The translations under genes were made by a program, and so were the position numbers. The notes beneath the pieces are model-generated. The model was not told the DNA's origin. It did no database searches and saw only the letters and a program-made list of their open reading frames with translations. From Leptolyngbya subtilissima AS-A7 (GTDB lineage Bacteria; Cyanobacteriota; Cyanobacteriia; Phormidesmidales; Phormidesmidaceae), in assembly GCF_039962255.1 (NCBI RefSeq), contig NZ_JAMPKY010000001.1, positions 434,001-498,000 on the forward strand: a DNA stretch of 64,000 bases, read 5' to 3'. Shown one piece after another: positions 29,816 to 43,299 of the stretch (its first letter is position 1; every line of letters begins with the position of its first letter).

Positions 29816-30262
29816 ATGGAGTTTAAAACCCCTGGCCAGGAGGCGGTTTACCATCGAATTTTGCCCTGGATGCATGAGCTGTTTGGCGAAGCGCTGGTGG
29901 TATTTGAGGATGAACCCCTCTTCATTGTGAATTTGGGGTCGGCGGTGGCCTCGACTCGCGTGGTGCCCTGGCACGACTATGAAACGCTGATTACTACGCG
30001 AGCCTATGTAGTAACTGCGATTGACCTCACCCCTGAGTTGAGCTACTACCTGCTGCGGGAAAACAACGGCATCTACTTTGGCCGCTTTGCCTACGATGCT
30101 GAGGATGACATTGTGTTTGAGCACAGTCTGGTGGGTGAAACCTGCGATCGCCTCGATCTAAATCACTCCGTTGCCACCGTGATTCGCATTGCCGATAGCT
30201 ACGACGACGAAATCGTCGCTCGCTGGGGAGGGCAGCGGGCCCTCGATCGCTGGGCTTCTTGA
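29816..30262 (+). CDS. YbjN/type III secretion chaperone-like fold protein
   Basis: 148 residues. The compact alpha/beta pattern (WMHELFGEALVVFEDEPLFIVNLGSAVASTRVVPW, shown here only as a landmark around residues 18-50, then YYLLRENNGIYFGRFAYDAEDD and FEHSLVGETCDRLDL) fits the YbjN superfamily, which has a chaperone-like fold. No catalytic residues, signal peptide or membrane helix. Function in cyanobacteria is unknown. It is about 100 bases upstream of the amidase gene on the same strand. Confidence 0.75.
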   Translation: MEFKTPGQEAVYHRILPWMHELFGEALVVFEDEPLFIVNLGSAVASTRVVPWHDYETLITTRAYVVTAIDLTPELSYYLLRENNGIYFGRFAYDAEDDIVFEHSLVGETCDRLDLNHSVATVIRIADSYDDEIVARWGGQRALDRWAS

Positions 30263-30359
30263 CGATTTCACGTTGGTTCAGGGGTTTCATCGCAGGATGA
30301 GGGTTCATTGGGCCCATTTCGCGCTACAAAATAGTCTGACAATGCACCCGGAGGTTGCC

Positions 30360-31163
30360 GTGGCTCGTCGCTGGATTTGGATAGGGTTAGGGGGGGTGCT
30401 AGTGGCGCTGTTGAGCTTAGGGTTTGGTTCAGCCCGCGCGGCAGGCCCCCTAGAACCTATGCTCACTGTGAGAGGTTTGCCACCTATGCAAACCACGGCG
30501 GCGGCAACGCTTCAGCCGCTCAAAGCCGCTCAGCCGGAGCCAACTGATTTTGCGGCCCCAGAGCTGGCTCAGGCGGCTCCGCCCCGCCAGGTGACGGCCC
30601 TGGCCGACCCTACTAACTACGGCGATCGCTTTCTCACCGACATCAATGGCCAAGTCGTGCACAACGACTTCATTGCCGTGCTGCACGAAACCGTGGGCTC
30701 GGCTCAAAGTGCCCTTAACCTATTCCGGACGCGGCACCCGCGCGACCAAGACCAGGTCAGCTACCATGCCCTAATTGGCCGCGATGGCACGGTCTACTAC
30801 ATCGTGCCGCCTGAAAAACGGGCTTTTGGAGCCGGCAACTCCGTGTTCAATGGCCCTAATGGCCCAGAGGCGGTGCGCACCAATGCGGCGTTTCCCCCCT
30901 CGGTGAACAATTTTGCCTACCATGTGTCTTTGGAGACGCCCGGCGATGGCTTCAACAACCGCCGGAGCCACAGCGGCTATACCCAAGCTCAATATGATTC
31001 CCTAGCCTGGCTGCTGGCTCAGACCACCATTCCCGACAGCCGGATTACCACCCACCAAGCGGTCGATCGCTCCGGCAACCGCATGGATCCGCGCAGCTTT
31101 AACTCTTCTAGCTTTTTTAGCCAGCTGCGCCGCTACCCCACCCGTAGCAGCCTGACAGGCTAG
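30360..31163 (+). CDS. Secreted N-acetylmuramoyl-L-alanine amidase (PGRP/Amidase_2 fold)
   Basis: 267 residues from GTG at 30360, preceded by GGAGG with 5-base spacing. The frame is open back to 30189, but that start would overlap the YbjN-like gene. Residues 1-28 form a signal peptide (basic ARR, then WIWIGLGGVLVALLSLGFG, then ARAAG). The Amidase_2 domain (about 95-250) has the zinc ligands: VLHETVGS, FAYHVSLET and ITTHQAVD, plus the catalytic Tyr in VSYHALIGRDGTVYYIV. It cleaves the MurNAc-L-Ala bond of peptidoglycan in the periplasm. It could feed cell-wall recycling together with anmK, though the genes are far apart. Its last 4 bases overlap the convergent lipoprotein gene. Confidence 0.88.
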   Translation: MARRWIWIGLGGVLVALLSLGFGSARAAGPLEPMLTVRGLPPMQTTAAATLQPLKAAQPEPTDFAAPELAQAAPPRQVTALADPTNYGDRFLTDINGQVVHNDFIAVLHETVGSAQSALNLFRTRHPRDQDQVSYHALIGRDGTVYYIVPPEKRAFGAGNSVFNGPNGPEAVRTNAAFPPSVNNFAYHVSLETPGDGFNNRRSHSGYTQAQYDSLAWLLAQTTIPDSRITTHQAVDRSGNRMDPRSFNSSSFFSQLRRYPTRSSLTG

Positions 31164-31861
31164 GGGGCGACGTCGAACGACACGACCATTTCGTACACCG
31201 ACGGCTCGAGCACCGTTAAGTTCGGGTCACTGCTAGCAAATATCTCGTCACCCATCGTGGCCTCGTAGGCTTCGAGATGTGCTGCTATAGCTGCGTCTGA
31301 GGGGGCTAGGCGCAGCCATAGGATGTCGTCGTACTGGGCTAGGGTAGTGTCTTCCAGCACAATTGTGCCGCCGTAGTCCCAGGCAAAGCCGTAGAGGTCG
31401 AAGTCGCCCAGCACTGCTTGAACCTCAGCGTAGGGCGCACCCACCCCTAACCCCTCTGGGGTTTGCCAGGCTTGGCCAAAGTCTTTGATGAGCCGGGGCC
31501 GACTTTGAGCGTCGTCAGCCCACACCACGGCAAACTGTTGGTCAGTACCAGGATTGACCACTGTGCCCACCTCTGTGCTGCCTTCCCCTAGGGAGATGGG
31601 GCGATCGCTCAGGGCAGCCTCACCATAGAAACTAGCTAAATCGGCGCGGCTCGTTTGGGCCGTAACCGGCCCCACTCGCTCGCCCGGAATCACCAGCTTG
31701 TCAAAATCCTCGCCGGGCGCATCGGGCGCTGCGGTAGCCGGTGTTTCAGCGGCAGTGCTGGGCTCCGACGGCTGTGCCTCGGGCAGCGCCTCCTGAAGTT
31801 GGCAGGCGCTTAAGGGCACTAACGCCAGACTAAAAACTACTGTCATCCACAATTGCGCCAT
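31160..31861 (-). CDS. Putative lipoprotein of unknown function
   Basis: 233 residues. A signal peptide (MAQLWMTVVFSLALVPLSAC) ends in lipobox LSAC with the lipidated Cys at residue 20. A Pro/Ala/Glu-rich linker (about 21-52) follows and then a globular domain with IPGERVGPVTAQTSRADLASFYG. This type of domain, with a start-up IPGxxVGPI element, is seen in many bacterial lipoproteins of unknown function. No catalytic motif is evident. It overlaps the 3' end of the amidase gene by 4 bases in convergent orientation. Confidence 0.8.
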   Translation of the reverse strand: MAQLWMTVVFSLALVPLSACQLQEALPEAQPSEPSTAAETPATAAPDAPGEDFDKLVIPGERVGPVTAQTSRADLASFYGEAALSDRPISLGEGSTEVGTVVNPGTDQQFAVVWADDAQSRPRLIKDFGQAWQTPEGLGVGAPYAEVQAVLGDFDLYGFAWDYGGTIVLEDTTLAQYDDILWLRLAPSDAAIAAHLEAYEATMGDEIFASSDPNLTVLEPSVYEMVVSFDVAP

Positions 31862-31956
31862 GGTGATTCACCGAGTCGAGCGGCTTGGGCCCAAGTCAGG
31901 TAGCCGGGCTATTGCTTTGATCGAGACTAGGCGCGGTTGTTCTGAACGGTTGATGG

Positions 31957-32643
31957 CTAGGGCACCAGGTGGTGGCTAATGGCAAACCGCAGCAGCTCAG
32001 AACGGTTGCTGGTCTCGGTTTTGCGCAGCAGACTGCTGACATACTTTTCGACGGTGCGGGGGCTTAAAAATAAGCGATCGCCTATTTGAGCATTCGATAG
32101 CCCGTCCGATAGCAGCGTCAGCACATCCTGTTCCCGAGCAGTAAATTCAGCCACCATGTCGATTGGGTCAGGGGTCCAAGGCTCAACCGCTTCGCTGACT
32201 TCGCTCGACTGAAGGGCACGCTGCTGAGCAGTACTAAGAGCCACCTGCTGAATCCATGCCGACTGAATCAGCTGCGATCGCTCCAGCAAATTGCGCACGA
32301 TCGCTCCGATTTCTTTCAGCTCAAAAGGTTTGGGCAAGTAGAGGTCACAGCCAAGCTGGTAGCCTCGAATTCGGTCTTGGGTCTGATTGTGGGCGGTGAG
32401 GAAAATCACTGGCAGCAGCCGAAAAGCCGGATACTGCCGCACCTTTTGCACCAACGTAAATCCATCGAGACCGGGCATGCCGATGTCGGTAATGATGAGC
32501 TGGGGTTGGTGGCTAAACACCTGGCTCAGCGCCATCTCGCCGTGGCTGGCCATCAGTACAGAATAGCCTTCAAGCTCTAAATAATCGCACAACGCAAGGC
32601 GAGTGCCCTCGTCGTCTTCGGCAATTAAAATGGTGAGCGGCAT
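31957..32643 (-). CDS. NarL/LuxR-family response regulator
   Basis: 228 residues. Receiver domain (1-~120): acidic pocket AEDDEG, phospho-Asp in IITDIGMPGLDG, Thr in FLTAHN, Lys in LPKPFE. A ~40-residue linker follows, then a LuxR-type helix-turn-helix (about 165-228): FTAREQDVLTLLSDGLSNAQI, split before GDRLFLSPRTVEKYVSSLL. It should be a DNA-binding transcription factor phosphorylated by an unlinked kinase; no kinase gene adjoins it. It is 212 bases downstream of an OmpR-type regulator gene on the same strand. Confidence 0.93.
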   Translation of the reverse strand: MPLTILIAEDDEGTRLALCDYLELEGYSVLMASHGEMALSQVFSHQPQLIITDIGMPGLDGFTLVQKVRQYPAFRLLPVIFLTAHNQTQDRIRGYQLGCDLYLPKPFELKEIGAIVRNLLERSQLIQSAWIQQVALSTAQQRALQSSEVSEAVEPWTPDPIDMVAEFTAREQDVLTLLSDGLSNAQIGDRLFLSPRTVEKYVSSLLRKTETSNRSELLRFAISHHLVP

Positions 32644-32855
32644 AGCGTTCTACCAGGGTTAGAGCGGCTGACAGGTCAAACATCACAGCCTACGGCCACG
32701 CTCTCAGCCTTGGCACGCAGCCGACTTTCGCTCCTGCCCCTTAAGCCTAAACGACAATTTAAGGACTCGGTTTATTTGTTGCTGAAGTTAAAGTCTTGTG
32801 AAGTAGGCACTCCGCAGGGATTAACATAGCCCCTGGCAACGGGTTTTGACAGCCC

Positions 32856-33617
32856 TTAGCCCAGACGATAACCAAAGCCACGCACGGTTTTCAGGTACTG
32901 CGGGTGGCTAGGGTCAACCTCCAGCTTTTCACGAATCCAACGAATGTGCACGTCTACGGTTTTGTTGTCGCCCATAAAATCGTGCCCCCAAACCTGGTCG
33001 ATAATCTGATCCCGCGACCATACTCGCCGGGGTTGGCTCATAAACAGTTCCAGAATTCGAAATTCTTTGGGGGAAAGGTTAACTTCTTCGCCCTTCAAAA
33101 AGACACGGCACTCCTGGGGATGGAGCATGATGTCTTCAAATCGGAGCACGTTATCTTTCTCAACACTAGCTTTGCCACGCTGTCGGCGCAGCAGTGCCCG
33201 GCACCGGGCAACCAGTTCCCGCATGCCGAAGGGCTTGCTTAAGTAGTCGTCGGCACCAATTTCGAGCCCCACCACGCGATCGGTTTCGGTACCCTTAGCA
33301 CTGAGCACTAAAATGGGCACGTCGATGCCCTGGTGGCGCAGCAGACGGCAGAGGTCAAGTCCATTCATGCCGGGCAGCATGAGGTCGAGTACCACCAGGT
33401 TGACTTCGGGTCGGTCGGTGCGGCTCGACACCGATGTGCCGCCCAGCATATCGAGAGCAGTCAAACCATCTTCGGCAACGAGAACATCAAATCCTTCCTC
33501 GGCCAACCCAAAGGCCAATGTTTCTCGAATCAATTCTTCATCTTCGACGATGAGTACCCGCCCTAAGCCAACCCGTAGGTTTGGCTGAGCCTGTGGCGCG
33601 AGGTCTACAGAATCCAT
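32856..33617 (-). CDS. OmpR/PhoB-family winged-helix response regulator
   Basis: 253 residues. An unusual ~18-residue N-terminal extension precedes the receiver (VLIVEDEELIRETL, phospho-Asp in VVLDLMLPGMNG, LSAKG, LSKPFG). The winged-helix domain (about 160-253) has LSPKEFRILELFM, the recognition helix KTVDVHIRWIREKLEVD and the terminal wing LKTVRGFGYRLG. It resembles cyanobacterial phosphate- or stress-type regulators (SphR- or NblR-like), but I cannot decide between them from sequence, so no symbol is given. No adjacent sensor kinase. Confidence 0.9.
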   Translation of the reverse strand: MDSVDLAPQAQPNLRVGLGRVLIVEDEELIRETLAFGLAEEGFDVLVAEDGLTALDMLGGTSVSSRTDRPEVNLVVLDLMLPGMNGLDLCRLLRHQGIDVPILVLSAKGTETDRVVGLEIGADDYLSKPFGMRELVARCRALLRRQRGKASVEKDNVLRFEDIMLHPQECRVFLKGEEVNLSPKEFRILELFMSQPRRVWSRDQIIDQVWGHDFMGDNKTVDVHIRWIREKLEVDPSHPQYLKTVRGFGYRLG

Positions 33618-33730
33618 AAGAAATGGTTAAAAACTGCTCACTGAGATCATATCAGCCCGCAGAGAGATGAGCGGTCTAGCAAAAGCTAAGACTTTGTAAA
33701 CTCCAGCTTGGAGTGGGTAGAAAAAGCTCC

Positions 33731-35065
33731 TTAGGCTCTGCTAACCAGATCTTCTACAGCATCAGCGCGGGTAGGAAGGGCGGCAGTTAAAACAGTGCAA
33801 CCCGTTGAGTTGATTTGCACGTCATCTTCAATGCGGATACCGCGTACCCCGTCAAAGGCCTTGAGACGGTCCCAGTTAATGGCATCGTCGTACTGGCCCG
33901 ACTGCCGCGCCAGAGCGAGAATACCGGGTACTTGGTAAAAGCCGGGTTCGATGGTGACTACCATGTTGGCCGCTAAGGACCGGTCTAGGCGAAGAAATTT
34001 GAGCCCAAAGCGATCGCTGCGAGAGCGACCTGGCTCATAGCCCGCCATATCCCCTAAATCTTCCATATCGTGCACATCTAGCCCCAGCAGATGCCCCACC
34101 CCATGGGGAAAAAATAGGGCGTGCACATCCCGCTCGACCAAAGCATCAGGGTTTCCCCTCAGAATCCCCAGATCGACTAACCCCGCCGCCAGGGTGCGGC
34201 AGGCTAGCAGGTGTAGATCTCGGTACTCAATCCCAGGGCGAGCGGCGGCAATGCAGGCATCGTGGGCGACCAGCACCAGGTTGTATATATCCCGCTGGGG
34301 GGCGGTGAATTGGCCAGATACAGGCCAGGTGCGAGTAATGTCCGAAGCCCAGCCACTAGGGGCCTCGGCCCCTACGTCGGCTAGCAGCAGATCGCCCGGA
34401 GCCAGGGCATGGTGGTACTGCTCATTGTGGAGCACTTCGCCGTGGACGGTGACAATGCTGTTGTAGGCGCAGGTCATGCCCTGGCCTATAATCACCTGCT
34501 CCATGGCGGCCCGCACCTGGGCCTCAGTGGTTGCCCCCGGAGTGGCAACCATACCGGCTTTGTGGGCGGCGACGGAGACCGCCGCCGCCTGTTTGATTTG
34601 GTCAAGGGCGTAGTCATCGTGGTGCAATCGCAGGGCCACCAGGGCTTCGACCAAAGCTCTGCGACGTTCTGCGGCGGTGGTTTGGGCGGAAAGGGTCGCC
34701 GCTTCGCCTAAATAGGCGTCTAGGTCTTGATAAGGATAGGCGGCGTCGGCTCCGATATCAGCGGCGATCGCGTCTCGACTAGGGCTTGGCCCGTGCCACA
34801 GAGCCGCTTCGGTGGAGGTCTCATCCATAAACAGCGTCAGCCTTCCCCCTTCAAGATGAAGGGCAGCATTGGCCAGGGGCAGGCCCGCAAAGTACAAAAA
34901 ATGGCTGTTGGCCCGAAAGGGATAGGTGTTGGCCGGAAAGTTGCGCGACACTGCCTGCCCCGACCACAGCACCACTGGCCCTGGATGAAGCTCAGCTAGG
35001 CGATCGCGGCGCTGCCGTAGCGCCGCAGCCAGCGATAAAGAGGTGGTCTGAGGGGGCATAGACAA
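33731..35065 (-). CDS. M24B family Xaa-Pro aminopeptidase
   Basis: 444 residues. N-terminal creatinase-like domain (about 1-170) and pita-bread catalytic domain (about 175-435). The five metal ligands are in place: Asp in LLADVGAE and Asp in SDITRTWPVSG, His in FFPHGVGHLLGLDVHD, Glu in TIEPGFYQVPG, Glu in IRIEDDVQI. It removes N-terminal residues before proline using two Mn2+ ions, in the cytoplasm. No signal peptide is present. The gene stands alone between the OmpR-type regulator and a long promoter region for the divergent 35301 gene. Confidence 0.95.
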   Translation of the reverse strand: MSMPPQTTSLSLAAALRQRRDRLAELHPGPVVLWSGQAVSRNFPANTYPFRANSHFLYFAGLPLANAALHLEGGRLTLFMDETSTEAALWHGPSPSRDAIAADIGADAAYPYQDLDAYLGEAATLSAQTTAAERRRALVEALVALRLHHDDYALDQIKQAAAVSVAAHKAGMVATPGATTEAQVRAAMEQVIIGQGMTCAYNSIVTVHGEVLHNEQYHHALAPGDLLLADVGAEAPSGWASDITRTWPVSGQFTAPQRDIYNLVLVAHDACIAAARPGIEYRDLHLLACRTLAAGLVDLGILRGNPDALVERDVHALFFPHGVGHLLGLDVHDMEDLGDMAGYEPGRSRSDRFGLKFLRLDRSLAANMVVTIEPGFYQVPGILALARQSGQYDDAINWDRLKAFDGVRGIRIEDDVQINSTGCTVLTAALPTRADAVEDLVSRA

Positions 35066-35243
35066 CCAAAGCCGACGACCTCTTTAGTCTGCCACAGCAC
35101 ACCAGTCCTAAAGATGTAACAAACTTGACAGGCTAGATCTAGCTTTAAACCTCGATTGCCAGTCGTTAACCCCAAAGAAGAGAAACATCCCTTAAAATGA
35201 AACCAATAAAATTAATTTTTTGTGAATTCTCCATTCAAAGCTC

Positions 35244-35274
35244 AGTTCAAATGAACTACTGTTGAATCTATAAC
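35244..35274 (+). promoter_or_regulatory. Candidate promoter with palindromic operator
   Basis: Perfect palindrome AGTTCA-AA-TGAACT (35244-35257) overlaps a TTCAAA -35-like element (35246-35251). A TATAAC -10 lies 17 bases further on (35269-35274), 26 bases before the 35301 ATG. The overlap is typical of a repressor site. The binding protein is unknown. Confidence 0.5.
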
Positions 35275-35300
35275 GGCTAGCCTATCTCAGGTGCAGCGCT

Positions 35301-35618
35301 ATGGCTTCCTTAACGATTTGTCTAGGATCACGGGTTCGCCTTAAGGGTCAAGACGACCACGTACCCGATTTTGTAGTAGTGCGGTGTGAGCGCGATCGCT
35401 GCTGGGTGCGCCAGCAAGACTGGGCTCCTGGTACCGAAATCAAAGTCAGTTTCAAGCAGATTCTAGTGCCTCCAGAGGCAGGCTCAACTCTGACAGTAGA
35501 TCTGGCTCAGCAGGTCAAAGCATCAGGATTGTTGGCCGGCCACGGTGACCACCGCGCGGGAGAGAACGTGGTTTATATGGACGCCTACCGCCGTCGCCCT
35601 GCCCCTCAGAAGCGGTAG
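35301..35618 (+). CDS. Small conserved hypothetical protein
   Basis: 105 residues. Rich in beta-type residues: LTICLGSRVRLKGQDDHVPD, then FVVVRCERDRCWVRQQDWAPG, then EIKVSFKQILVPP, resembling a small SH3-like barrel. The C terminus (about 80-105) is basic and disordered (YRRRPAPQKR). No catalytic motif or membrane helix. I recognise similar proteins only in cyanobacteria, from memory. It has its own promoter with a palindrome, and the cobalamin riboswitch begins about 65 bases downstream. Confidence 0.7.
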   Translation: MASLTICLGSRVRLKGQDDHVPDFVVVRCERDRCWVRQQDWAPGTEIKVSFKQILVPPEAGSTLTVDLAQQVKASGLLAGHGDHRAGENVVYMDAYRRRPAPQKR

Positions 35619-35682
35619 CGTTGATGGATGATAGTTTTGAGCTCTAAGTTGCAACGATTTGTTGCAGATGCTTCGTCCCTAA

Positions 35683-35868
35683 GGTGTTAGGATGCAGCTC
35701 TGTCGGTTTTAGCGGGGGTCAGCCGCTGAAGGAAACGGGGAAAGCGCAGCGAAAATCTGCCACTGTCCCGCAGCTGTGAGGCGATTTTAGAGTTCGGATT
35801 TTGGATTGACACTTCTCCAACGTCTAGACCTTAAAATTCTCCAAGTCAGAATGCCCGCCGATGGATGC
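35683..35868 (+). ncRNA. Cobalamin (B12) riboswitch
   Basis: The core shows the diagnostic elements in order: GAAGGAAACGGGGAAAG (35728-35744), the B12 box GCCACTGTCCCGCAGCTGTGA (35759-35779, one base over in length and given here as GCCACTGTCCCG plus CAGCTGTGA), a variable arm, and CAAGTCAGAATGCCCGCC (35842-35859), the 3' partner strand. In the family, adenosylcobalamin binding represses the downstream gene. The downstream genes here are an unknown protein and a DUF1636 protein. The ends of the element are approximate. Confidence 0.9.
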
Positions 35869-35881
35869 CCACTGTTATTTC

Positions 35882-35917
35882 CATCTGCGAGGTACAGATG
35901 ACTATAAATAGTTTTTG
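35882..35917 (+). terminator. Possible expression-platform hairpin of the riboswitch
   Basis: CATCTG (35882-35887) and CAGATG (35895-35900) form a 6-pair stem, followed by ACTAT-AA-ATAGT and a T-run (35912-35916). It lies directly after the riboswitch core and before the first GTG, so it may terminate transcription when ligand is bound. The stem is short; the role is inferred. Confidence 0.45.
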
Positions 35918-35986
35918 GTTTGCTCTAGGGCGCTGTAGCCCTGGGCGATATTTTTTGCTGCTGCACCAGGCCCCAAGCGATCGCCG

Positions 35987-36454
35987 GTGGTGGCTGTGCG
36001 CATAGATGACAGCGTGTGGCAGGGCTGTAGCGATTGGCAGCCGCTGTTTATTCGCGAATATTGGCTGCCCATAGGTCACCTCGCCTGGCAGGGGTTTTTG
36101 CAGCAGGGCCGAGGCATGATGCTGTGCGAGGTTCACGCTAGCACCGCCACGGTGGACTGGAGACGCACAGCGGTGCCCTACACTGCCCGTTTTGTGGCCG
36201 CAGGTGTCGTAGCTGCCTGCTGTCACGACCTCGGTCTGCCAGCTGATCAATTGCCTGCTCTAGCCGAGGCCATAGCGACCTACGACCCCGCCCAGGATGC
36301 GATCTTGCTCTTGATTGGAGACTCGCGCCCCTATGTGAGCTGCCTAAAGGCGTGGGCGGTGCCACCGCCGGAGTGCTCTCGCCAGATGGGCGATTCGCGA
36401 AGCGATCTGTCCTGGAATCGCCAGGCCGAGTTTACCGTCACTCCCAAATCTTAA
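35987..36454 (+). CDS. Unknown protein, first gene of the riboswitch operon
   Basis: 155 residues from GTG at 35987; two further in-frame GTG codons (35990, 35996) are equally possible, and no clear ribosome binding site marks any of them. The sequence (VAVRIDDSVWQGCSDWQP, then EVHASTATVDWRRTAVPYTARFV, then ALAEAIATYDPAQDAILLLIGDS) is alpha/beta and soluble, with several Cys residues (positions about 14, 47, 77, 78). I do not recognise a family. Placement between a cobalamin riboswitch and a DUF1636 gene suggests a role in cobalamin or cobalt metabolism, or in a B12-independent alternative pathway. This rests on context only. Confidence 0.6.
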   Translation: MVAVRIDDSVWQGCSDWQPLFIREYWLPIGHLAWQGFLQQGRGMMLCEVHASTATVDWRRTAVPYTARFVAAGVVAACCHDLGLPADQLPALAEAIATYDPAQDAILLLIGDSRPYVSCLKAWAVPPPECSRQMGDSRSDLSWNRQAEFTVTPKS

Positions 36455-36527
36455 TTTCTCGGTTTTGTCGGTCTCCCAAGCTTCGAGGCTGGCTGGCAAA
36501 TCCTATTCACCTATCTGTTTGAACCCA

Positions 36528-36956
36528 ATGACCCAACCAACTTTATTTGTCTGCGCCCTGTGTAAATTCCCCGCCGCTGAGTCTGGCGTGGGCGATACCC
36601 CTGGAGGGCAGCACCTGATCGACCAGCTAACGAACTGCCTAGCCGCCGAAACCGGTTCGGGCGAAATCACCCTTCAGCCGGTGCGCTGCATGGCTGCTTG
36701 CGATCGCGCCTGCAACGCTGCCCTCAGCGCCCCCGGCAAGCTGACCTTTATCTTCAATGACCTTTTGCCCAGCCAGTCAGCCTCCGACTTGGCAGAGTTT
36801 TGTCGCCAGTACGCCGCTGCCGCTAACGGCAAGGTGCCCTACGGGCTGCGATCGCCCGCCATCAAGCAGGCCACAGCCTATGTGCTGCCGCCGCTATTAG
36901 CCGAGGGAGTAGAGGCTGCAATTCCGGAACGGAGCGCTTCGCGAGTTACCCATTAA
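36528..36956 (+). CDS. DUF1636 family metal-binding protein
   Basis: 142 residues starting at MTQPTLFVCALCKF; the frame is open further upstream to 36465, but the family start is here. Conserved Cys: CALC (9-12) and CMAACDRACNAAL (about 50-62), a pattern like a thioredoxin-fold ferredoxin or a metal chaperone. DUF1636 genes often occur beside cobalamin-riboswitch or cobW-type genes in cyanobacteria (from family knowledge). It is 73 bases behind the unknown gene and presumably under the riboswitch. Biochemical function has not been defined to my knowledge. Confidence 0.85.
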   Translation: MTQPTLFVCALCKFPAAESGVGDTPGGQHLIDQLTNCLAAETGSGEITLQPVRCMAACDRACNAALSAPGKLTFIFNDLLPSQSASDLAEFCRQYAAAANGKVPYGLRSPAIKQATAYVLPPLLAEGVEAAIPERSASRVTH

Positions 36957-37468
36957 CTCATCCACTCTCCACCGACAATCTCAAACTCCAGCCCAAAATC
37001 CTGGGCCAAACTACAGGTTTGGTGGTCAGTAATGTTGGTGTCGCTCAGCTCTAAGTTGTAGAAGCTGATGGCGGCATCGGTAAAGTAAGGCCCTGCGTGC
37101 CAAGTGCCTACCTCTAGCTTGATAAAGCAGTTGCCGGGAATGTGAAAGGCGCGGATTTTACTCGGGTCGGGCTGCTCAGCCTTCCCCGGTGGAGCGACTG
37201 CCATAAACCAATCTTTGCCCTCCAGTGCTCCTAGGCACTGGGTACAACGTTGGTGCCGAGTAATAGTGCGAAACCGGGTGCCCTTGGCCTCTAGGGTCAT
37301 GATGTAAAAGTGGGGAATGCCGCGATCGAGCTTGAGCTGGGCATCGCTAGGGCCGAAGGTAGCGCCGTCGGCACTGGGGAAGATCACCTGACCAAAGGGT
37401 GCAAAGCTCTCTGGGGTGATGGGCTGTGCCGTCAATTGCTGAAGGGTGAGGGGGGGAGAGTCATCCAT
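36953..37468 (-). CDS. Ureidoglycolate lyase family protein (AllA-like)
   Basis: 171 residues. Cupin-type AllA fold: PITPESFAPFGQVI near residue 16, RHQRCTQCLGALEGKDWFMAVAP with the conserved His/Gln of the active site region (shown around 71-92), and FIKLEVGTWHAGPYF with the second conserved His. AllA converts ureidoglycolate to glyoxylate and urea. No other allantoin-pathway gene is near, and many AllA-like proteins of cyanobacteria are untested, so the substrate is uncertain. It overlaps the DUF1636 stop by 4 bases on the opposite strand. Confidence 0.85.
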   Translation of the reverse strand: MDDSPPLTLQQLTAQPITPESFAPFGQVIFPSADGATFGPSDAQLKLDRGIPHFYIMTLEAKGTRFRTITRHQRCTQCLGALEGKDWFMAVAPPGKAEQPDPSKIRAFHIPGNCFIKLEVGTWHAGPYFTDAAISFYNLELSDTNITDHQTCSLAQDFGLEFEIVGGEWMS

Positions 37469-37582
37469 TGGTACCGAGTTTTTGCAACTGTGGCGATCGC
37501 TAGCTCATGCTTACCTACGGTGGTTGCTCGATGTCTTGTAGGAGGAGACCATCATAAGATCCACTGGCTCAAGGCTATTGCC

Positions 37583-38269
37583 ATGATAGCTTCTCAGCTT
37601 AGCTTTCCCCAGGCTTCAGCGTATCGGGTACCGCCATTGGAAAGTGGCGACCGCTCATCCGCCCTGAGTTTGAGCGCGCCATGCCGCCGCTGCCGTTACC
37701 AAAGCCGAGCTGGTCGAAGGAGTCGTCTATGTGGCCTCGCCCCTGCGGTTTCAACAGCACGCCGAGCTTCACAGCCGATTAGATACTCGGCTGGGTACCT
37801 ATGTGGCCTTTACCTCCGGCACTCGCTCAGGCATTGAACCCACAGTGCGCATTGATCTAGATAACGAGCCTCAGCCCGATATTGTATTTGTGATGGATAA
37901 ATTGACGGGCGGACAGGCTCGACTCAGTAAAGATGGCTACTTAGAAGGTTCGCCGAAACTGGTGATTGAGATTACCGTCAGCAGTGCGGCCATTGACCAG
38001 GGCGATAAAAAGCAGGCCTATTGGCGCAACGGGGTGGCAGAGTACCTGGTTTGGCAGGTGTTTGAAAACAAAATTGACCGATATGCGCTCAACGATGGTG
38101 ATTATCAGCCGTTGCCAGTGGATGATGATGGGGTGATTCGCAGCCGTCAGTTTCCGAGGCTTTGGTTAGCGGCGAACGCCATCCTACAGGGAGATATGGC
38201 TCAGGTGTTAACGGTATTCAGTCGCCAGAGCACCAGGCATTTGTGGTTTCACTGGAGCGATCGCCGTAA
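37583..38269 (+). pseudogene. Uma2-family nuclease-like gene, broken by three frameshifts
   Basis: Three reading frames must be joined to restore an Uma2 (DUF820) protein. Frame 1 from ATG 37583 gives MIASQLSFPQ to ESGDR. Frame 2 gives LIRPEFERAMP. From about 37690 frame 3 gives VTKAELVEGVVYVASPLRF onward through QPDIVFVMD, GSPKLVIEIT and KKQAYWRNGVAEYLVW (the PD-(D/E)XK-type core), until about 38215. There another shift is needed to reach QSPEHQAFVVSLER and TAA at 38269. Lesions lie near 37654, 37685 and 38215. The longest open piece starts at GTG 37731 and would run on into the next gene. Uma2 proteins are multicopy in cyanobacteria; this copy is probably dead. Confidence 0.85.
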
Positions 38270-38321
38270 TCAAGCGCAACACTGCCGCCGCGTCGTCGTA
38301 ACCGAGGAAGGAGGACATGTT

Positions 38322-38564
38322 ATGACCTGTGACCATGCTAGAGCGTTAGCCTTAGCTAAAGCAGGGCAGTGGGATGCTGCTCACAACCTCGTGCAGCCCT
38401 ACTACGATCGCAACTCCTGCCTGATTCACGCCTACCTACATCGGGTCGAGGGAGACAACGGCAACGCCCGTTACTGGTATCGGCAGGCTGGGGAAACCAT
38501 GCCCGCCAATACGCTGGAGGAAGAATTGGAGCGGTTAACTGATGCGATTGTGGGTCAGGCGTAA
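38322..38564 (+). CDS. Small TPR-like hypothetical protein
   Basis: 80 residues from ATG at 38322, preceded by GGAAGGAGG (38306-38314) at 7-base spacing, the strongest ribosome binding site in this region. It is in frame with the last part of the Uma2 pseudogene but has its own start signals and an unrelated sequence: MTCDHARALALAKAGQWDAA, then YYDRNSCLIHAYLHRVEGDNG and ARYWYRQAGE. This is a short helical repeat protein resembling one tetratricopeptide unit, probably cytoplasmic. Similar small proteins are widespread in bacteria; role unknown. Confidence 0.75.
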   Translation: MTCDHARALALAKAGQWDAAHNLVQPYYDRNSCLIHAYLHRVEGDNGNARYWYRQAGETMPANTLEEELERLTDAIVGQA

Positions 38565-38703
38565 ATGGATTCACCGGCCCGGCGTTGGGCAGCCCATTAC
38601 GACGTCTCCTGCAAATAATTCAGGAAAGACTGGACCCAGAGTAGCTGTATGTTTTTGCAATCCCCAGAACTAACTAACTAGTTGGAAGAAGCTCTGGAAC
38701 CCA

Positions 38704-39915
38704 TCATGATTCAGGAGGTGGCAACGGCGTACAGCGGCCATGGCGTAGAGCCAGCAACCGATACATCACCATAGCTGTCATGGTGGCAGAAATACCCCAC
38801 ATCGTGGCGATCGCAACAGAGCTCGTCAAAATCAACCCGGTGGTTGTATGGCCGATAGCTCGGGTAACAGAACCCAAAATAAACCAGCCCAGCCCCCAAC
38901 TAACCGCACCGCTAATGACTTGAATTAAAACCCACCAGGCCATACCAGGAATCTGGGTATAAAAGACTAGCCCCTGAATACCACCGATTATCAGGCCCCC
39001 AACAGCTCCACTCATGATTAAACTGCTGTGAAAGGCAACATAAGGCCGCACCATTCTGCTCAGGACCACCCCTAACATCGTGGCCAGAGTCCATCGCACT
39101 GTTCCCGAAGCCCCCAAACGCAGCATTGAACCCTGCAAGAGACCGACTACAGCTCCTAGAACATAGGGAATGATTAGGTTTTGCTCAGCAGGGACGCTGA
39201 TTACGGCTAATCCGCAGCCTAAAACCGTCAAGCCAACCCAGAGGAAGCAGAACTTCCAGGCCCTATGAGGGGGATAATTGGCGGCCAAGAATAGGGGACG
39301 GTTAAAGGCAGAAAAATTCATAGGAATGTCGTTGACGTAACGTTGGACCAGGGACGATACCATCGGTGGCGACTCCACCTGCCTGCCCTGCCAATAGCAT
39401 ACCCTTGCCTCCTGAGCCCATAGCGTAATGCGAAACCCCAAAACCCACGGGCAAGAGTAGTAGCGCTCCACATACCAGCGAATTTCTTCCAGTTCCACCG
39501 GCCCCGGGGGCGAGGTAAAGTGGTCGCAGCGGCTGGTAATACGGCGGCTATGGTCACGGTTGCAATCGGTAGAAATGTAGGTGAGTTCGGCGGTGATGGT
39601 GGCGCGGCGAATGCCATCCTGCTCGGTAATAATGGGATCGCTGAGCGTCAGCAGCAATTCCTCCACGGGTTCAACCGCAACGGGTCCGCCAGTGACCAAA
39701 TCCGCAGGCAGCTCTAACCTCAGGGCCGCCGAGATTTGCGGCATGGCCTCGGTGAGGCCGTTGGAGCTGTCTTTAACGAAAATGTGGATCGGTTCGCTGG
39801 GGAAGAAGGGCTTGAGGATGCCCCGTTGTACCCCCGGCAGCACCACAGGAATCACCTTATAGCCATCGGTGCGGGTCTGAGCCACCTCCGAGGCCAGGCG
39901 AATTTTCTTTTGCAC
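38704..39915 (-). CDS. Residual ORF of a broken TIR-domain membrane protein
   Basis: 403 residues open from GTG 39915. The first ~60 residues (KKIRLASEVAQTRTDGYKVI, PVVLPGVQRGIL, MPQISAALRLELP) are the second half of a TIR domain. A ~120-residue region follows (ITAELTYISTD, WYVERYYSCPWVLGFRITLW), then six predicted TM helices (about 220-385) with Gly-rich segments. The N-terminal half of the TIR domain is encoded just upstream but is separated by a TGA and other lesions (see the 39916-40127 entry), so this frame is probably not a functional gene. If translated from the GTG, it would lack the TIR catalytic Glu. Confidence 0.7.
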   Translation of the reverse strand: MQKKIRLASEVAQTRTDGYKVIPVVLPGVQRGILKPFFPSEPIHIFVKDSSNGLTEAMPQISAALRLELPADLVTGGPVAVEPVEELLLTLSDPIITEQDGIRRATITAELTYISTDCNRDHSRRITSRCDHFTSPPGPVELEEIRWYVERYYSCPWVLGFRITLWAQEARVCYWQGRQVESPPMVSSLVQRYVNDIPMNFSAFNRPLFLAANYPPHRAWKFCFLWVGLTVLGCGLAVISVPAEQNLIIPYVLGAVVGLLQGSMLRLGASGTVRWTLATMLGVVLSRMVRPYVAFHSSLIMSGAVGGLIIGGIQGLVFYTQIPGMAWWVLIQVISGAVSWGLGWFILGSVTRAIGHTTTGLILTSSVAIATMWGISATMTAMVMYRLLALRHGRCTPLPPPES

Positions 39916-40166
<251 letters not shown>

Positions 40167-40352
40167 CTACCTTTTGCACCATCAAGATAGCCGCCCTTTT
40201 TCCAGAAAGCCCAGGTTTTGCTACCCTAACCAGCGGCTGATTCAAACTACGTTGGCTACTTCTTACAACACCTAAAAGAAAATTCTCACCCTCTAACCCT
40301 TGTTGGTAAGCTGGAGGTTTGTTCTTCGATCGCAGAGTTGGGGCAGTAAGGC

Positions 40353-41501
40353 ATGGATAACAAGTTGATGCTGATGATTCCGGGGCCGACCCCGGTACCC
40401 GAGCAGGTGCTGTTGGCCATGGCCAAGCATCCCATGGGCCACCGTAGCGGAGAGTTTAGCGCCCTGATGGGCGAGGTGACTGAAAACCTCAAGTGGCTGC
40501 ACCAGACCAAAAACGACGTGCTGGTGCTCTGCTCCAGCGGCACCGGGGCCATGGAAGCCGGCATTATCAACTTCCTCAGCGCGGGCGATAAGGTTCTGGT
40601 GGGCAACAACGGCAAGTTTGGCGAACGCTGGGGCGAAGTAGCCCGCGCCTACGGCCTCGATACCCACGAAATTACCGCTGAGTGGGGCAAACCCCTCAAC
40701 CCCGACGACTTCAAAGCAGCCCTAGAGACCGACACCGCTAAAGATATTAAAGCGGTAATTATTACCCACAGCGAAACCTCTACCGGGGTGCTCAACGATG
40801 TGGAAACTATAAACAGCCATGTCAAAGCCCACGGCGCGCTAATCATGCTGGATGCGGTGACTAGCCTAGGAGCTATCTCGGTACCGGTGGACGAGTGGGG
40901 TCTAGATGTGGTGGCTTCAGGTTCCCAAAAGGGCTACATGATTCCTCCCGGGCTGGCCTTCGTCAGCGTCAGCGCCAAGGCTTGGGAAGCCTACGAAACG
41001 GCTACATTGCCCAAGTTCTACCTCGACCTCAAGCCCTACAGCAAAGGGGCGGCTAAGAATACGACTCCGTTTACCCCCCCGGTCAACCTGTTCTTTGCCC
41101 TGCACGCGGCTTTGCAAATGATGCAGAAAGAGGGACTAGAGGCGATCTTTGCTCGCCACGATCGCCAGAAGCGAGCCACCCGCGCCGCCATGGCTGCCCT
41201 CAACCTGCCGCTGTTTGGGGCCGACGACTGCGCTAGCCCAGCCATCACTGCCGTCATGCCCCAGGGGGTAGACGCGGAGCAAATTCGCTCGGTGATGAAG
41301 AAGCAGTTTGACATTGTCTTAGCTGGGGGCCAAGACCACCTGAAGGGCAAGATCTTTCGGATTGGGCACCTGGGCTTTGTGAGCGATCGCGACATTCTCA
41401 CCGCCGTCGCATCTTTAGAAGCCACCCTGACCAAGCTGGGCTACGACCAGTTCACCCCTGGGGCTGGGGTCAACGCCGCTGGCCAAATTCTGCTGGCCTA
41501 G
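40353..41501 (+). CDS. Class V aminotransferase (alanine/serine-glyoxylate aminotransferase type)
   Basis: 382 residues. PLP-dependent fold type I. The N terminus LMIPGPTPVPEQV and GHRSGEFSALM are typical. The PLP-phosphate loop SSGTGAMEAGI is near residue 70, the PLP-ring Asp is in LMLDAVTSLGA, and the Schiff-base Lys is in ASGSQKGYMIPPG (about 195). The C-terminal substrate Arg is in FRIGHLGFVSD. Members transfer the amino group of alanine or serine to glyoxylate and support photorespiration. Some cyanobacterial homologues were once labelled as a soluble hydrogenase small subunit, which is a historical misnomer. It stands alone and follows the TIR pseudogene. Confidence 0.93.
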   Translation: MDNKLMLMIPGPTPVPEQVLLAMAKHPMGHRSGEFSALMGEVTENLKWLHQTKNDVLVLCSSGTGAMEAGIINFLSAGDKVLVGNNGKFGERWGEVARAYGLDTHEITAEWGKPLNPDDFKAALETDTAKDIKAVIITHSETSTGVLNDVETINSHVKAHGALIMLDAVTSLGAISVPVDEWGLDVVASGSQKGYMIPPGLAFVSVSAKAWEAYETATLPKFYLDLKPYSKGAAKNTTPFTPPVNLFFALHAALQMMQKEGLEAIFARHDRQKRATRAAMAALNLPLFGADDCASPAITAVMPQGVDAEQIRSVMKKQFDIVLAGGQDHLKGKIFRIGHLGFVSDRDILTAVASLEATLTKLGYDQFTPGAGVNAAGQILLA

Positions 41502-41522
41502 ACTCACCCCTAAAGGCCCTGG

Positions 41523-41634
41523 CTAAATCGCTTAACGCGGGTCACCATCCGCTGAAAGCTTCCGGGGCCGCACTCTTTCTCAAACTCCAGTACGATCCAG
41601 TCTTAGCGCTTGCCAATGCACTTGGCGCTTTCTG
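41523..41634 (-). pseudogene. Remnant of a second helicase-gene 3' end
   Basis: This 112-base segment is a diverged copy of the last ~36 codons of the helicase gene at 41725-43299. On the minus strand it translates as SAKCIGKR-stop-DWIVLEFEKECGPGSF, then QRMVTRVKRFS, against SAKRIGKRQDWIVQEFEKEC in the intact gene. A CAA-to-TAA change makes the stop. Only the 3' end remains, so it is the relic of a tandem paralogue or a partial duplication. The MITE-like element lies between the two copies. Confidence 0.85.
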
Positions 41635-41716
41635 GTAGGGTGCATTCGTGCGAAGCACAATGCACCTAGAGAATCTACGCCAAGAGGTGGTGCATTGCTG
41701 CGCGAATGCACCCTAC
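41635..41716. mobile_element. Small palindromic MITE-like element
   Basis: 82 bases. The left end begins GTAGGGTGCATTCG (from 41635) and runs to AATGCACC (41659-41666). The right end is its imperfect reverse complement, GGTGCATT (41689-41696) to CGAATGCACCCTAC (41703-41716), differing by a 4-base indel and a few substitutions. A 22-base non-palindromic centre separates the arms. No ORF. The GTAGGGTGCATT... palindrome type is one I associate with short repeats scattered in cyanobacterial genomes. A target-site duplication was not identified. Confidence 0.8.
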
Positions 41717-41724
41717 GTTCGTCG

Positions 41725-43299
41725 TTAAATAACTTGGCGTAGATTCGCCATTCGTTGAAAGCTGCCGGGGCCGCACTCTTTTTCAAACTCTTGCACAATC
41801 CAGTCCTGGCGTTTGCCGATGCGCTTGGCGCTTTTTTGCAGGTATTCAAAATACTCCAGCATCTGTGTAGGGGTGGGCCGAGGGCCGAGGATCGAGCCCA
41901 AGCACCAAGCATCTTTCGGCCTGCGACCGCAGTGCTCCCAGAACGATCGCTCCGCCCAGGTTGGCGCATTGCCACGCATATAGGCGCGACGGCGGTGGCT
42001 GTGAAACAGCTCTACCAGGGTAGGAATGTCGTTGATCTGGTGGGCCTGGTCGGCGGAGTAAATTTCCACCATGTCCTCCAGGTTGAGCGGGCGCTCATTA
42101 ATCCACTGGTGGCCGCAGTCGGGGCACTTGGCGATGAACGACAGCACAATGCGCCCGCACTGGGGGCAGGGCTTTGTCGGTGGTGGATTGCCCCCCTCGC
42201 TGTCCTTTTGGGTCTGTACCGGCAGGTTGTAGTCCTTGATGTCTTCGGGAAAACCCAGGCGCTCCAGATTGCCCGCCTGATCGAGAATGATGCCGTACTG
42301 CTTGCCCGTCTGGGGCGAGATTCGCATCACTCGGCCAATCTGTTGTAGGTGTAGGGCGCTCGACTGGGTGGGCCGCAGCATCAGCCCCACCTCTACGCTG
42401 GGTTCGTCAAAGCCGATGCTGATCACATTGCAGGAGGTGAGCACCAGGATCTTTTCTTCCCGCAGGTCGCTGTACATGCGTTTGCGGTCTTTGATCGGGG
42501 TGCTCCCTTCTACCGTGTCAGCAGTAATGCCCGCCGCGCGAAAGGCATCGGCCACGTGGCGGGCGTGCTCGAGATCCACACAAAAGGCGATCGTGCGCTT
42601 GCCGGGGCAGAGGCGCTGCCACTCGCGGACAATTTTTTCGATCAGCTCGGGGCGATCACAGGCATTCTTCAGCCCGACCTCATCGTAGTCGCCCCGCACG
42701 GTCTTGACTTCCTTCAGGTTGACGACCCCGTCGGGGGGCATGCTGTAGTACTTCATTGGGGCTAAAAAGCCCCGCTGTTGCAGGTCACTGGGCACGGGCG
42801 AGGCCACCAGGGTATCCATAACGTCGCCCAGCTGCTCCTTGCCCAGGCGCTTGGGGGTTGCGGTCATCACCAGGTGCACGGCATTGGGGAAGGTTTTGAG
42901 CACTTTTTTGCCCACCTGGCTAAACAGGGTAATGTGGCCCTCGTCGTAGAACACTACATCGGGCACCCACTGCTTCCACCACTGTCGCTTTGACATGGTT
43001 TGAATGCTGGCGATCTGAATTGGGGCGTCGCGGTTCTCTTCCCAACCCGCTTTTATAAAGCCGCAGTGCAGGCCAAAAGATTCCATCTTTTCGTAAGTTT
43101 GGCCCACCAGCACATCCAGATGTACTAAGAACATTAGCCGCTTCCCTGCTCGCTCGGCATGGGCGCAGATTTGTCCGCTAATCACGGTTTTGCCCGCTCC
43201 AGTGCCGGCAATAATCGCTACCCGCTTGTGCCCCTCGTTGAGCTTGCGGTAGAGGTCATTGATGAGGTCAACCTGATAGGGGCGCAGTTGGGGAGGCAT
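41725..43299 (-). CDS. SF2 DEAD/DEAH-type helicase with zinc ribbon
   Basis: 524 residues. RecA-like domain 1: Q-type PYQVDLINDLY, Walker A AGTGAGKTVISG (about 31-42), DEAH-like VFYDEGH (about 117), TATPKR. Domain 2: TIAFCVDLEHARHVADAF, LTSCNVISIGFDEPSVEVGL and QQIGRVMR (motif VI arginine). A four-Cys zinc ribbon CPQCG and CPDCG follows (about 380-400), then a C-terminal helical region with TPTQMLEYFEYLQKSAKR. The architecture is like RadD/YejH-type helicases of bacteria or phage helicases, with roles in DNA repair or in mobile elements; the exact role is unknown. Upstream is a G-rich repeat; downstream is a decayed copy of its own 3' end. Confidence 0.92.
   Translation of the reverse strand: MPPQLRPYQVDLINDLYRKLNEGHKRVAIIAGTGAGKTVISGQICAHAERAGKRLMFLVHLDVLVGQTYEKMESFGLHCGFIKAGWEENRDAPIQIASIQTMSKRQWWKQWVPDVVFYDEGHITLFSQVGKKVLKTFPNAVHLVMTATPKRLGKEQLGDVMDTLVASPVPSDLQQRGFLAPMKYYSMPPDGVVNLKEVKTVRGDYDEVGLKNACDRPELIEKIVREWQRLCPGKRTIAFCVDLEHARHVADAFRAAGITADTVEGSTPIKDRKRMYSDLREEKILVLTSCNVISIGFDEPSVEVGLMLRPTQSSALHLQQIGRVMRISPQTGKQYGIILDQAGNLERLGFPEDIKDYNLPVQTQKDSEGGNPPPTKPCPQCGRIVLSFIAKCPDCGHQWINERPLNLEDMVEIYSADQAHQINDIPTLVELFHSHRRRAYMRGNAPTWAERSFWEHCGRRPKDAWCLGSILGPRPTPTQMLEYFEYLQKSAKRIGKRQDWIVQEFEKECGPGSFQRMANLRQVI

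Follow-up and report, generated by a model that had tools for sequence, protein, structure and literature searches.

Our finding that a cobalamin riboswitch, a 35-codon leader ORF (uORF), a gene of a widespread cyanobacterial family (ORF1) and a DUF1636 gene follow one another on the forward strand of the window (that is, of the whole 64,000-nucleotide stretch of DNA analysed) suggests that we may be dealing with a translational OFF switch which acts through a coupled uORF. ORF1 and the DUF1636 protein would then serve the low-B12 or low-cobalt state, and the operon would stem from an ancestor that lost metE; taken as a whole, we consider this reading rather probable. The riboswitch and the operon are real and conserved, and we regard the riboswitch and its context as solid. 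Judged by the geometry of the leader, control of translation through the coupled leader ORF is likely.

The aptamer (35687–35876, forward strand, as are all parts of the operon) matches RF00174 with 50.1 bits and E 1.6e-9 in an Rfam cmscan, covers positions 1–189 of the model and exceeds the gathering score of 31.5; a search of the whole genome (5.66 Mb, 18 contigs) returns the same aptamer at E 3.4e-11, and it is present in relatives as well. Its B12 box starts at 35844. This Infernal check bears out the cobalamin riboswitch proposed in an earlier note on this DNA, and both motifs quoted there are seen in the sequence by eye. The aptamer is followed by a P13-type hairpin (CATCTG-CGAGGTA-CAGATG, 35882–35900), the uORF (35898–36005, with its stop TAG at 36003–36005), a terminator-like or leader hairpin within the uORF (35924–35945, from a pattern scan), ORF1 (35996–36454, ∼152 residues) and, 73 bases past ORF1 on the same strand, the DUF1636 gene (36528–36956, 142 residues), and a convergent gene (36953–37468, PF04115) closes the operon. 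Riboswitch, ORF1 and DUF1636 are kept together in the displayed loci of the window clade, which forms one group (support 89) in a quick tree. Directly upstream of the riboswitch lies an ORF of 105 residues (35301–35618) that has no Pfam match and occupies the same place in the displayed window-clade loci. The genome holds a second cobalamin aptamer above the cut-off (C4:310247–310418, locus L095), which precedes a HupE-type permease, and an ATG within its P13 hairpin is a possible HupE start; a third, partial candidate on C5 (24.8 bits, sub-threshold) was treated as chance. For ORF1 itself, the start at GTG 35996 is the best placed, its alignment column reading (A/G)TG in 16 of 16 loci; GTG codons at 35987 and 35990 are alternatives, and we replace the former as the start by 35996.

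In cobalamin riboswitches, a kissing contact between the loops L5 and L13 hides the ribosome-binding site (RBS). In the P13 hairpin of the window the RBS GAGGT (35889–35893) occupies the loop and an ATG (35898–35900) the 3' arm, and no clear Watson-Crick match between L5 and L13 was recognized in the window by eye. Across 16 loci (the window and 15 close relatives) the RBS stands in the P13 loop every time, 100% of the P13 cells are paired, four of the six pairs are invariant and none has both sides changed; being nearly invariant, the hairpin gives no covariation signal. Nor does covariation prove the two leader hairpins, since between 23 and 120 of the 500 shuffles attain the observed values. 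Behind 66 of the 75 distinct B12-box matches in the fetched loci there is a GAGGT with an ATG or GTG a few bases further on, and elsewhere the P13 start codon directly opens long genes: HupE (L095, in the window genome), CbiM (L134, with GTG), DUF1636 (L145, L148) and a member of the ORF1 family (L153). Among 30 scanned DUF1636 loci (L029 being the same place as L145), 17 show a B12 box and 10 have DUF1636 opened by the P13 start codon. Since this codon opens known genes elsewhere, the P13 ATG of the window is very probably an initiation site under switch control. A hairpin with GAGGT in its loop and a start codon in its arm could also serve as a simple pattern by which to recognize the gene that really comes first behind a B12 switch in cyanobacteria.

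The ATG at 35898 opens the RBS-preceded uORF between aptamer and ORF1, a feature absent from the earlier note. The uORF is open for 26–36 codons in all 16 loci, and over the same region the other two frames run into a stop after 0–7 codons. The start of ORF1 lies 2–5 bases past the uORF stop in 10 of the 16 loci and within a 10–17-base overlap with the uORF end in the other six, such that the uORF ends at the downstream start (−17 to +5 bases) throughout. Its pN/pS of 0.78 (16 loci), as compared with 0.72 and 0.90 in the other frames, led us to discard a conserved functional peptide as unsupported. ORF1 (0.26 for the five nearest loci, 0.34 for 13 loci) and DUF1636 (0.20 and 0.27, respectively) are both under purifying selection, the larger set comprising 13 of the 16 window-clade loci. 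An unconstrained leader peptide ahead of two constrained proteins is as expected if the act of translation, and not the peptide, matters.

Searched as a single sequence, ORF1 yields no match of its own in Pfam (up to E 1) or NCBIfam (up to E 10), and the earlier note had found no recognizable family for it. That statement can be revised: a first search within the order found relatives in 23 of 63 genomes, the window genome among them, and a profile built from 21 members has matches (E up to 0.001) in 114 of the 388 class genomes, the weakest of which may be other CcmS-like proteins. The profile matches rule out that ORF1 is an orphan of the genus. In one contig search, a protein of Leptolyngbya sp. 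FACHB-60 (84% identity) was the sole relative. At least four cysteines had been noted in ORF1, and there are indeed six; only C47 and C130 (numbering of the 155-residue form), though, recur in 90% or more of 61 family members (alignment A2, comprising the window and 60 of the 84 members that score above 60 bits). Tandem, unequal pairs of family genes are seen in a number of genomes (L098, L099, L101, L108, L114 and others), and several of the second copies cluster together in the quick tree. This tree is based on few columns, carries a long-branch warning and was used only for the scatter of metE-linked rows and the unity of the window clade.

The NCBIfam model of CcmS (NF049993) is matched weakly by 22 of the 61 members at E up to 0.1 (best 1.8e-4), while the window's ORF1 alone matches no CcmS model. 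CcmS is an assembly chaperone of the beta-carboxysome, the structures 8ZLH and 8ZLZ being described in the part of the report at hand (PMC11635287). A direct match to such a structure was not convincing (8zlz with E 1.2 for a narrower ORF1 profile, A1, and gone with A2), and the relation was adopted only after a test against a CcmS profile (A4) built from the above-cut-off CcmS proteins found in 9 of 38 genomes, which itself matches the PDB entries 8zlh/8zlz (All1292) and 9iv7/9iur (Slr1911). In hhalign, the ORF1 profile aligns with A4 over 102 columns (probability 95.2, E 2.7e-8) and A1 does so with probability 91.2 and E 9.8e-7, as compared with a probability of 0.2 for a DUF1636 profile as control. 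An AlphaFold model of ORF1 from two sequences reached a pLDDT of 37.9, so that the relation to CcmS is read from the profiles. This profile–profile match is significant, and by that measure the ORF1 family is a distant relative of CcmS. ORF1 is not CcmS itself: in the 38 genomes the best score at ORF1-family genes is 21.1 bits, short of the curated cut-off of 125 bits, the quick tree sets the family apart from CcmS with support 100 on a long branch, and the residues by which CcmS contacts CcmK1, given as Asp51, His57 and Tyr60 in the portion of the report at hand (PMC11635287), are not kept. In their place ORF1 has H50, R68 and A71 (155-residue form), as read by eye from an hhalign alignment that is uncertain beside a 13-column gap. 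The window genome contains no above-cut-off CcmS. ORF1 is best described as a presumed B12-regulon protein related to CcmS, for which we infer a role as chaperone or adaptor.

The company that the family keeps was surveyed in 79 fetched loci from 77 of the 114 genomes, hand-chosen with mostly stronger matches and counted with one ORF1 gene per locus. These exclude the window, L056, L057 and L052 (same places as L087, L088 and L089), L090–L094 (same places as L053, L051, L054, L055 and L050), L095, L096 and L154 (no ORF1) and the weak L155 and L156 (36.6 and 30.2 bits); G205 and G288 were left out of the riboswitch and metE searches of the ORF1-selected genomes. A B12 box lies at most 7 kb upstream on the same strand in 70 of the 79 loci, and a box or switch in 75. 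Five of the remaining nine have an Rfam match (L054, L089, L107, L120 and L139, those of L089 and L107 coming via genomes G351 and G450 among the matches listed), two (L106, L137) begin at contig ends inside metE, and the two distant loci L150 and L151 have neither B12 box nor Rfam match. Conversely, L053 (= L090) and L051 possess a B12 box and no above-threshold Rfam match. When neighbours on both strands of 70 stretches (L087–L156, each up to ∼15 kb) were clustered by BLAST and identified through Pfam or NCBIfam matches of representatives, a methyltransferase of two length types (26), DUF1636 (22), a fatty-acid desaturase (19), CobW (14, some on the other strand), a second desaturase (10), a cyclopropane-synthase-type protein (6), a UbiH-type hydroxylase (5) and HupE (4) emerged. 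The methyltransferase presumably resembles the MPBQ/MSBQ methyltransferase of quinone synthesis. At loci with ORF1 relatives among L097–L156 (for example L101, L104, L111 and L126) one or other desaturase, the methyltransferase, the UbiH-type hydroxylase or the cyclopropane-synthase-type protein often stands behind the B12 switch. These neighbours are perhaps engaged in the remodelling of lipids or quinones at low B12. With metE, CbiM, HupE or CobW alongside ORF1 relatives, a link to cobalt or B12 handling, or to a B12-free bypass, which the earlier note had derived from the riboswitch, is upheld, and both switch-controlled genes of the window do stand outside the classical B12 pathway.

A further tie is to metE, the gene of the B12-independent methionine synthase. 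In a fair share of the 70 stretches a metE of ∼750 residues immediately precedes ORF1, and since those genomes had been selected for ORF1, the unselected sample of 388 class genomes was examined as well (the samples for ORF1 and metE were taken as identical). A near-complete metE N-domain (E under 1e-85) is present in 36 of them. A strong ORF1 match accompanies it in 21 of the 36 (22 with the weak match of G167), as compared with 92 of the 352 others (Fisher p 1.5e-4); against the link count the 15 metE genomes that have no strong ORF1 match, 14 of which have none at all. Of the 21 genomes that combine near-complete metE with a strong ORF1 match, 20 have metE immediately followed by ORF1: in 19 the ORF1 match begins 2.2–2.6 kb past the start of the metE domain, and in the twentieth (G008) contig C89 carries the C-terminal part of metE and then ORF1. 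In G348, ORF1 is found at some distance downstream of one metE copy, on its strand, and an ORF1 fragment stands behind the other copy.

The window genome has no match to metE (PF08267) and does have one to MetH (C3:196488). Short fragments of metE persist between B12 box and ORF1 in two genomes of the window's genus (G318, residues 1–54; G328, residues 696–761) and in G298, G483, G434 and G442, and weaker fragments in L097, L098, L100, L104 and L119. By tblastn no such fragment was found in 30001–42000 of the window or elsewhere in the window clade; metE C-terminal letters that seemed visible by eye ahead of ORF1 in L054/L055 were likewise not found by tblastn and are uncounted. In L090 (6465–7154, = L053) a C-terminal metE fragment lies in frame with ORF1 within a single ORF of 230 codons. 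Rows linked to metE are spread over the quick tree, with 13 changes, a value equally low in 6 of 500 shuffles. As the window clade retains no detectable remnant, a past metE is there a matter of parsimony, argued from relatives. The window operon most likely descends from a cyanobacterial riboswitch–metE–ORF1 operon that lost metE.

The second gene had been assigned to DUF1636, and correctly so: it matches PF07845 with 100.2 bits (gathering cut-off 31.6). Its sequence contains C-x2-C and C-x3-C-x3-C, and Pfam gives a weak match to 2Fe-2S_thioredx (E 0.042). The family is described as related to thioredoxin-like [2Fe-2S] ferredoxins in the portion of the source at hand (PMC4520260). In Anabaena sp. 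PCC 7120 a cobalamin riboswitch precedes alr4027-btuB2-btuFCD, alr4027 RNA rises ∼100-fold under cobalt starvation, and the encoded product is described as a metal-binding protein in the available part of that paper (PMC10878165). Two published qPCR primers for alr4027 match the DUF1636 gene (PF07845) of locus L018 with one and two mismatches; the start-site primer shows five mismatches there and is absent in exact form from 53 genomes of one genus, and the upstream primer finds no match in L018. Judged by the qPCR primers, alr4027 very probably belongs to DUF1636. A DUF1636 gene behind a B12 switch is accordingly already known in kind and in effect published (PMC10878165).

How does the switch act? 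The earlier note had pointed to a terminator-like hairpin between aptamer and first gene, and one may accordingly think of a transcriptional switch in which the B12-bound state lets the hairpin at 35924–35945 terminate ahead of ORF1, the uORF being accidental. The hairpin exists, with a stem of eight pairs and then CGATATTTTTT; 91.1% of its cells are paired in the 16 loci, two pairs show one double change each, and transcript levels of alr4027 do track cobalt according to the accessible part of the Anabaena study (PMC10878165). However, the three terminator-like matches in 35250–37100 compare with 1.5 (sd 1.3) for shuffled sequence. The six consecutive T are displaced, starting six bases past the stem, and the run is broken in relatives such as L042, L043 and L049. 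Moreover, the RBS hairpin is far better conserved than the terminator-like one, and its start codon opens real genes elsewhere. Translation of the leader ORF fits the comparison better, and we consider termination an improbable mode of control here.

A more serious competitor is a translational switch in which ribosomes start ORF1 at a site proper to it, leaving the uORF as a by-product or as an uncoupled ribosome landing pad. Purine-rich stretches are seen by eye ahead of the ORF1 start in several relatives, so that ORF1 could initiate alone; the uORF peptide is unconstrained, hence translation of the uORF is only predicted; in metE-type leaders the uORF end does not coincide with metE; and in L018 a 31-codon uORF at the P13 ATG ends 169 bases before the DUF1636 gene, although the matching alr4027 is switched, as stated in the part of the report at hand (PMC10878165). 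All of this counts against coupling. On the other hand, in each of the 16 loci the ORF1 start is found at −17 to +5 bases from the uORF stop, whatever the length of the uORF (26 to 36 codons), and we therefore give an uncoupled uORF a real yet clearly minor chance. A further reading, in which ORF1 and DUF1636 have no current role and are the decaying remains of a metE operon, might be argued from the loss of metE in relatives and the fragments left behind; purifying selection on both genes (pN/pS as low as 0.26 and 0.20) and the persistence of riboswitch, ORF1 and DUF1636 side by side in the displayed window-clade loci make this very improbable.

Under the favoured translational OFF switch with a coupled uORF, L5 and L13 would kiss when B12 is bound, the RBS would be hidden, and uORF, ORF1 and DUF1636 would not be made. 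When B12 or cobalt is short, ribosomes would load on the uORF and, to judge from the geometry, reach ORF1 through termination and reinitiation, and the CcmS-related ORF1 and the DUF1636 protein, a relative of [2Fe-2S] ferredoxins, would jointly serve the low-B12 or low-cobalt state. It is tempting to speculate, with due reserve since we hold this the less probable outcome, that proteins derived from CcmS, often in tandem, became chaperones or adaptors of B12 starvation which first served MetE and other B12-free enzymes (desaturases, a quinone-type methyltransferase, an FAD hydroxylase) and, after the loss of metE, joined DUF1636 in survival at low cobalt, gated by the coupled uORF.

The analysis thereby brings forward an uncharacterised, widespread cyanobacterial family and links it both with B12 status and with the B12-independent methionine synthase; as a structural relative, CcmS offers a guide for experiments. 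It also provides a cyanobacterial case in which the possible action of a B12 switch through a coupled leader ORF can be put to the test. Cyanobacteria rank among the main producers of B12-type cofactors, and their response to shortage of B12 or cobalt matters for aquatic communities.

Among the papers listed from the open-licence PMC literature, as far as titles and the beginnings of abstracts go, no description of the ORF1 family, of its relation to CcmS or of uORF coupling at a B12 switch of cyanobacteria was found; several known systems invite comparison nonetheless. With CcmS, ORF1 shares a profile match over 102 columns that includes PP-x-C-x-x-Q, whereas it falls far under the NCBIfam cut-off, lacks the CcmK1-contact residues in the alignment and is placed behind a B12 switch. 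Riboswitch-controlled metE is matched in that ORF1 follows it directly in nearly all genomes having both, but the window genome has no metE match and has one to MetH. The desaturase gene ole1 stands under a B12 riboswitch, as stated in the available part of the source (PMC2211319), and desaturases likewise occur in operons with ORF1 relatives behind B12 switches, while the window operon has none. The alr4027 operon of Anabaena, as presented in the portion of the paper at hand, resembles the window in its cobalamin riboswitch ahead of a DUF1636 gene and differs in that btuB2 and btuFCD follow alr4027, whereas the window has ORF1 first and ends after DUF1636; that portion mentions no uORF (PMC10878165). 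The nearest parallel for the proposed mode of control is ppe2 of Mycobacterium tuberculosis, where, according to the part of the report at hand, a B12 switch gates a translated leader ORF and the downstream gene is reached mainly by termination and reinitiation (PMC11260477). The window shares the uORF behind a B12 switch; riboswitch variant and gene are different from those described there (PMC11260477), and coupling in the window is suggested by its geometry only.
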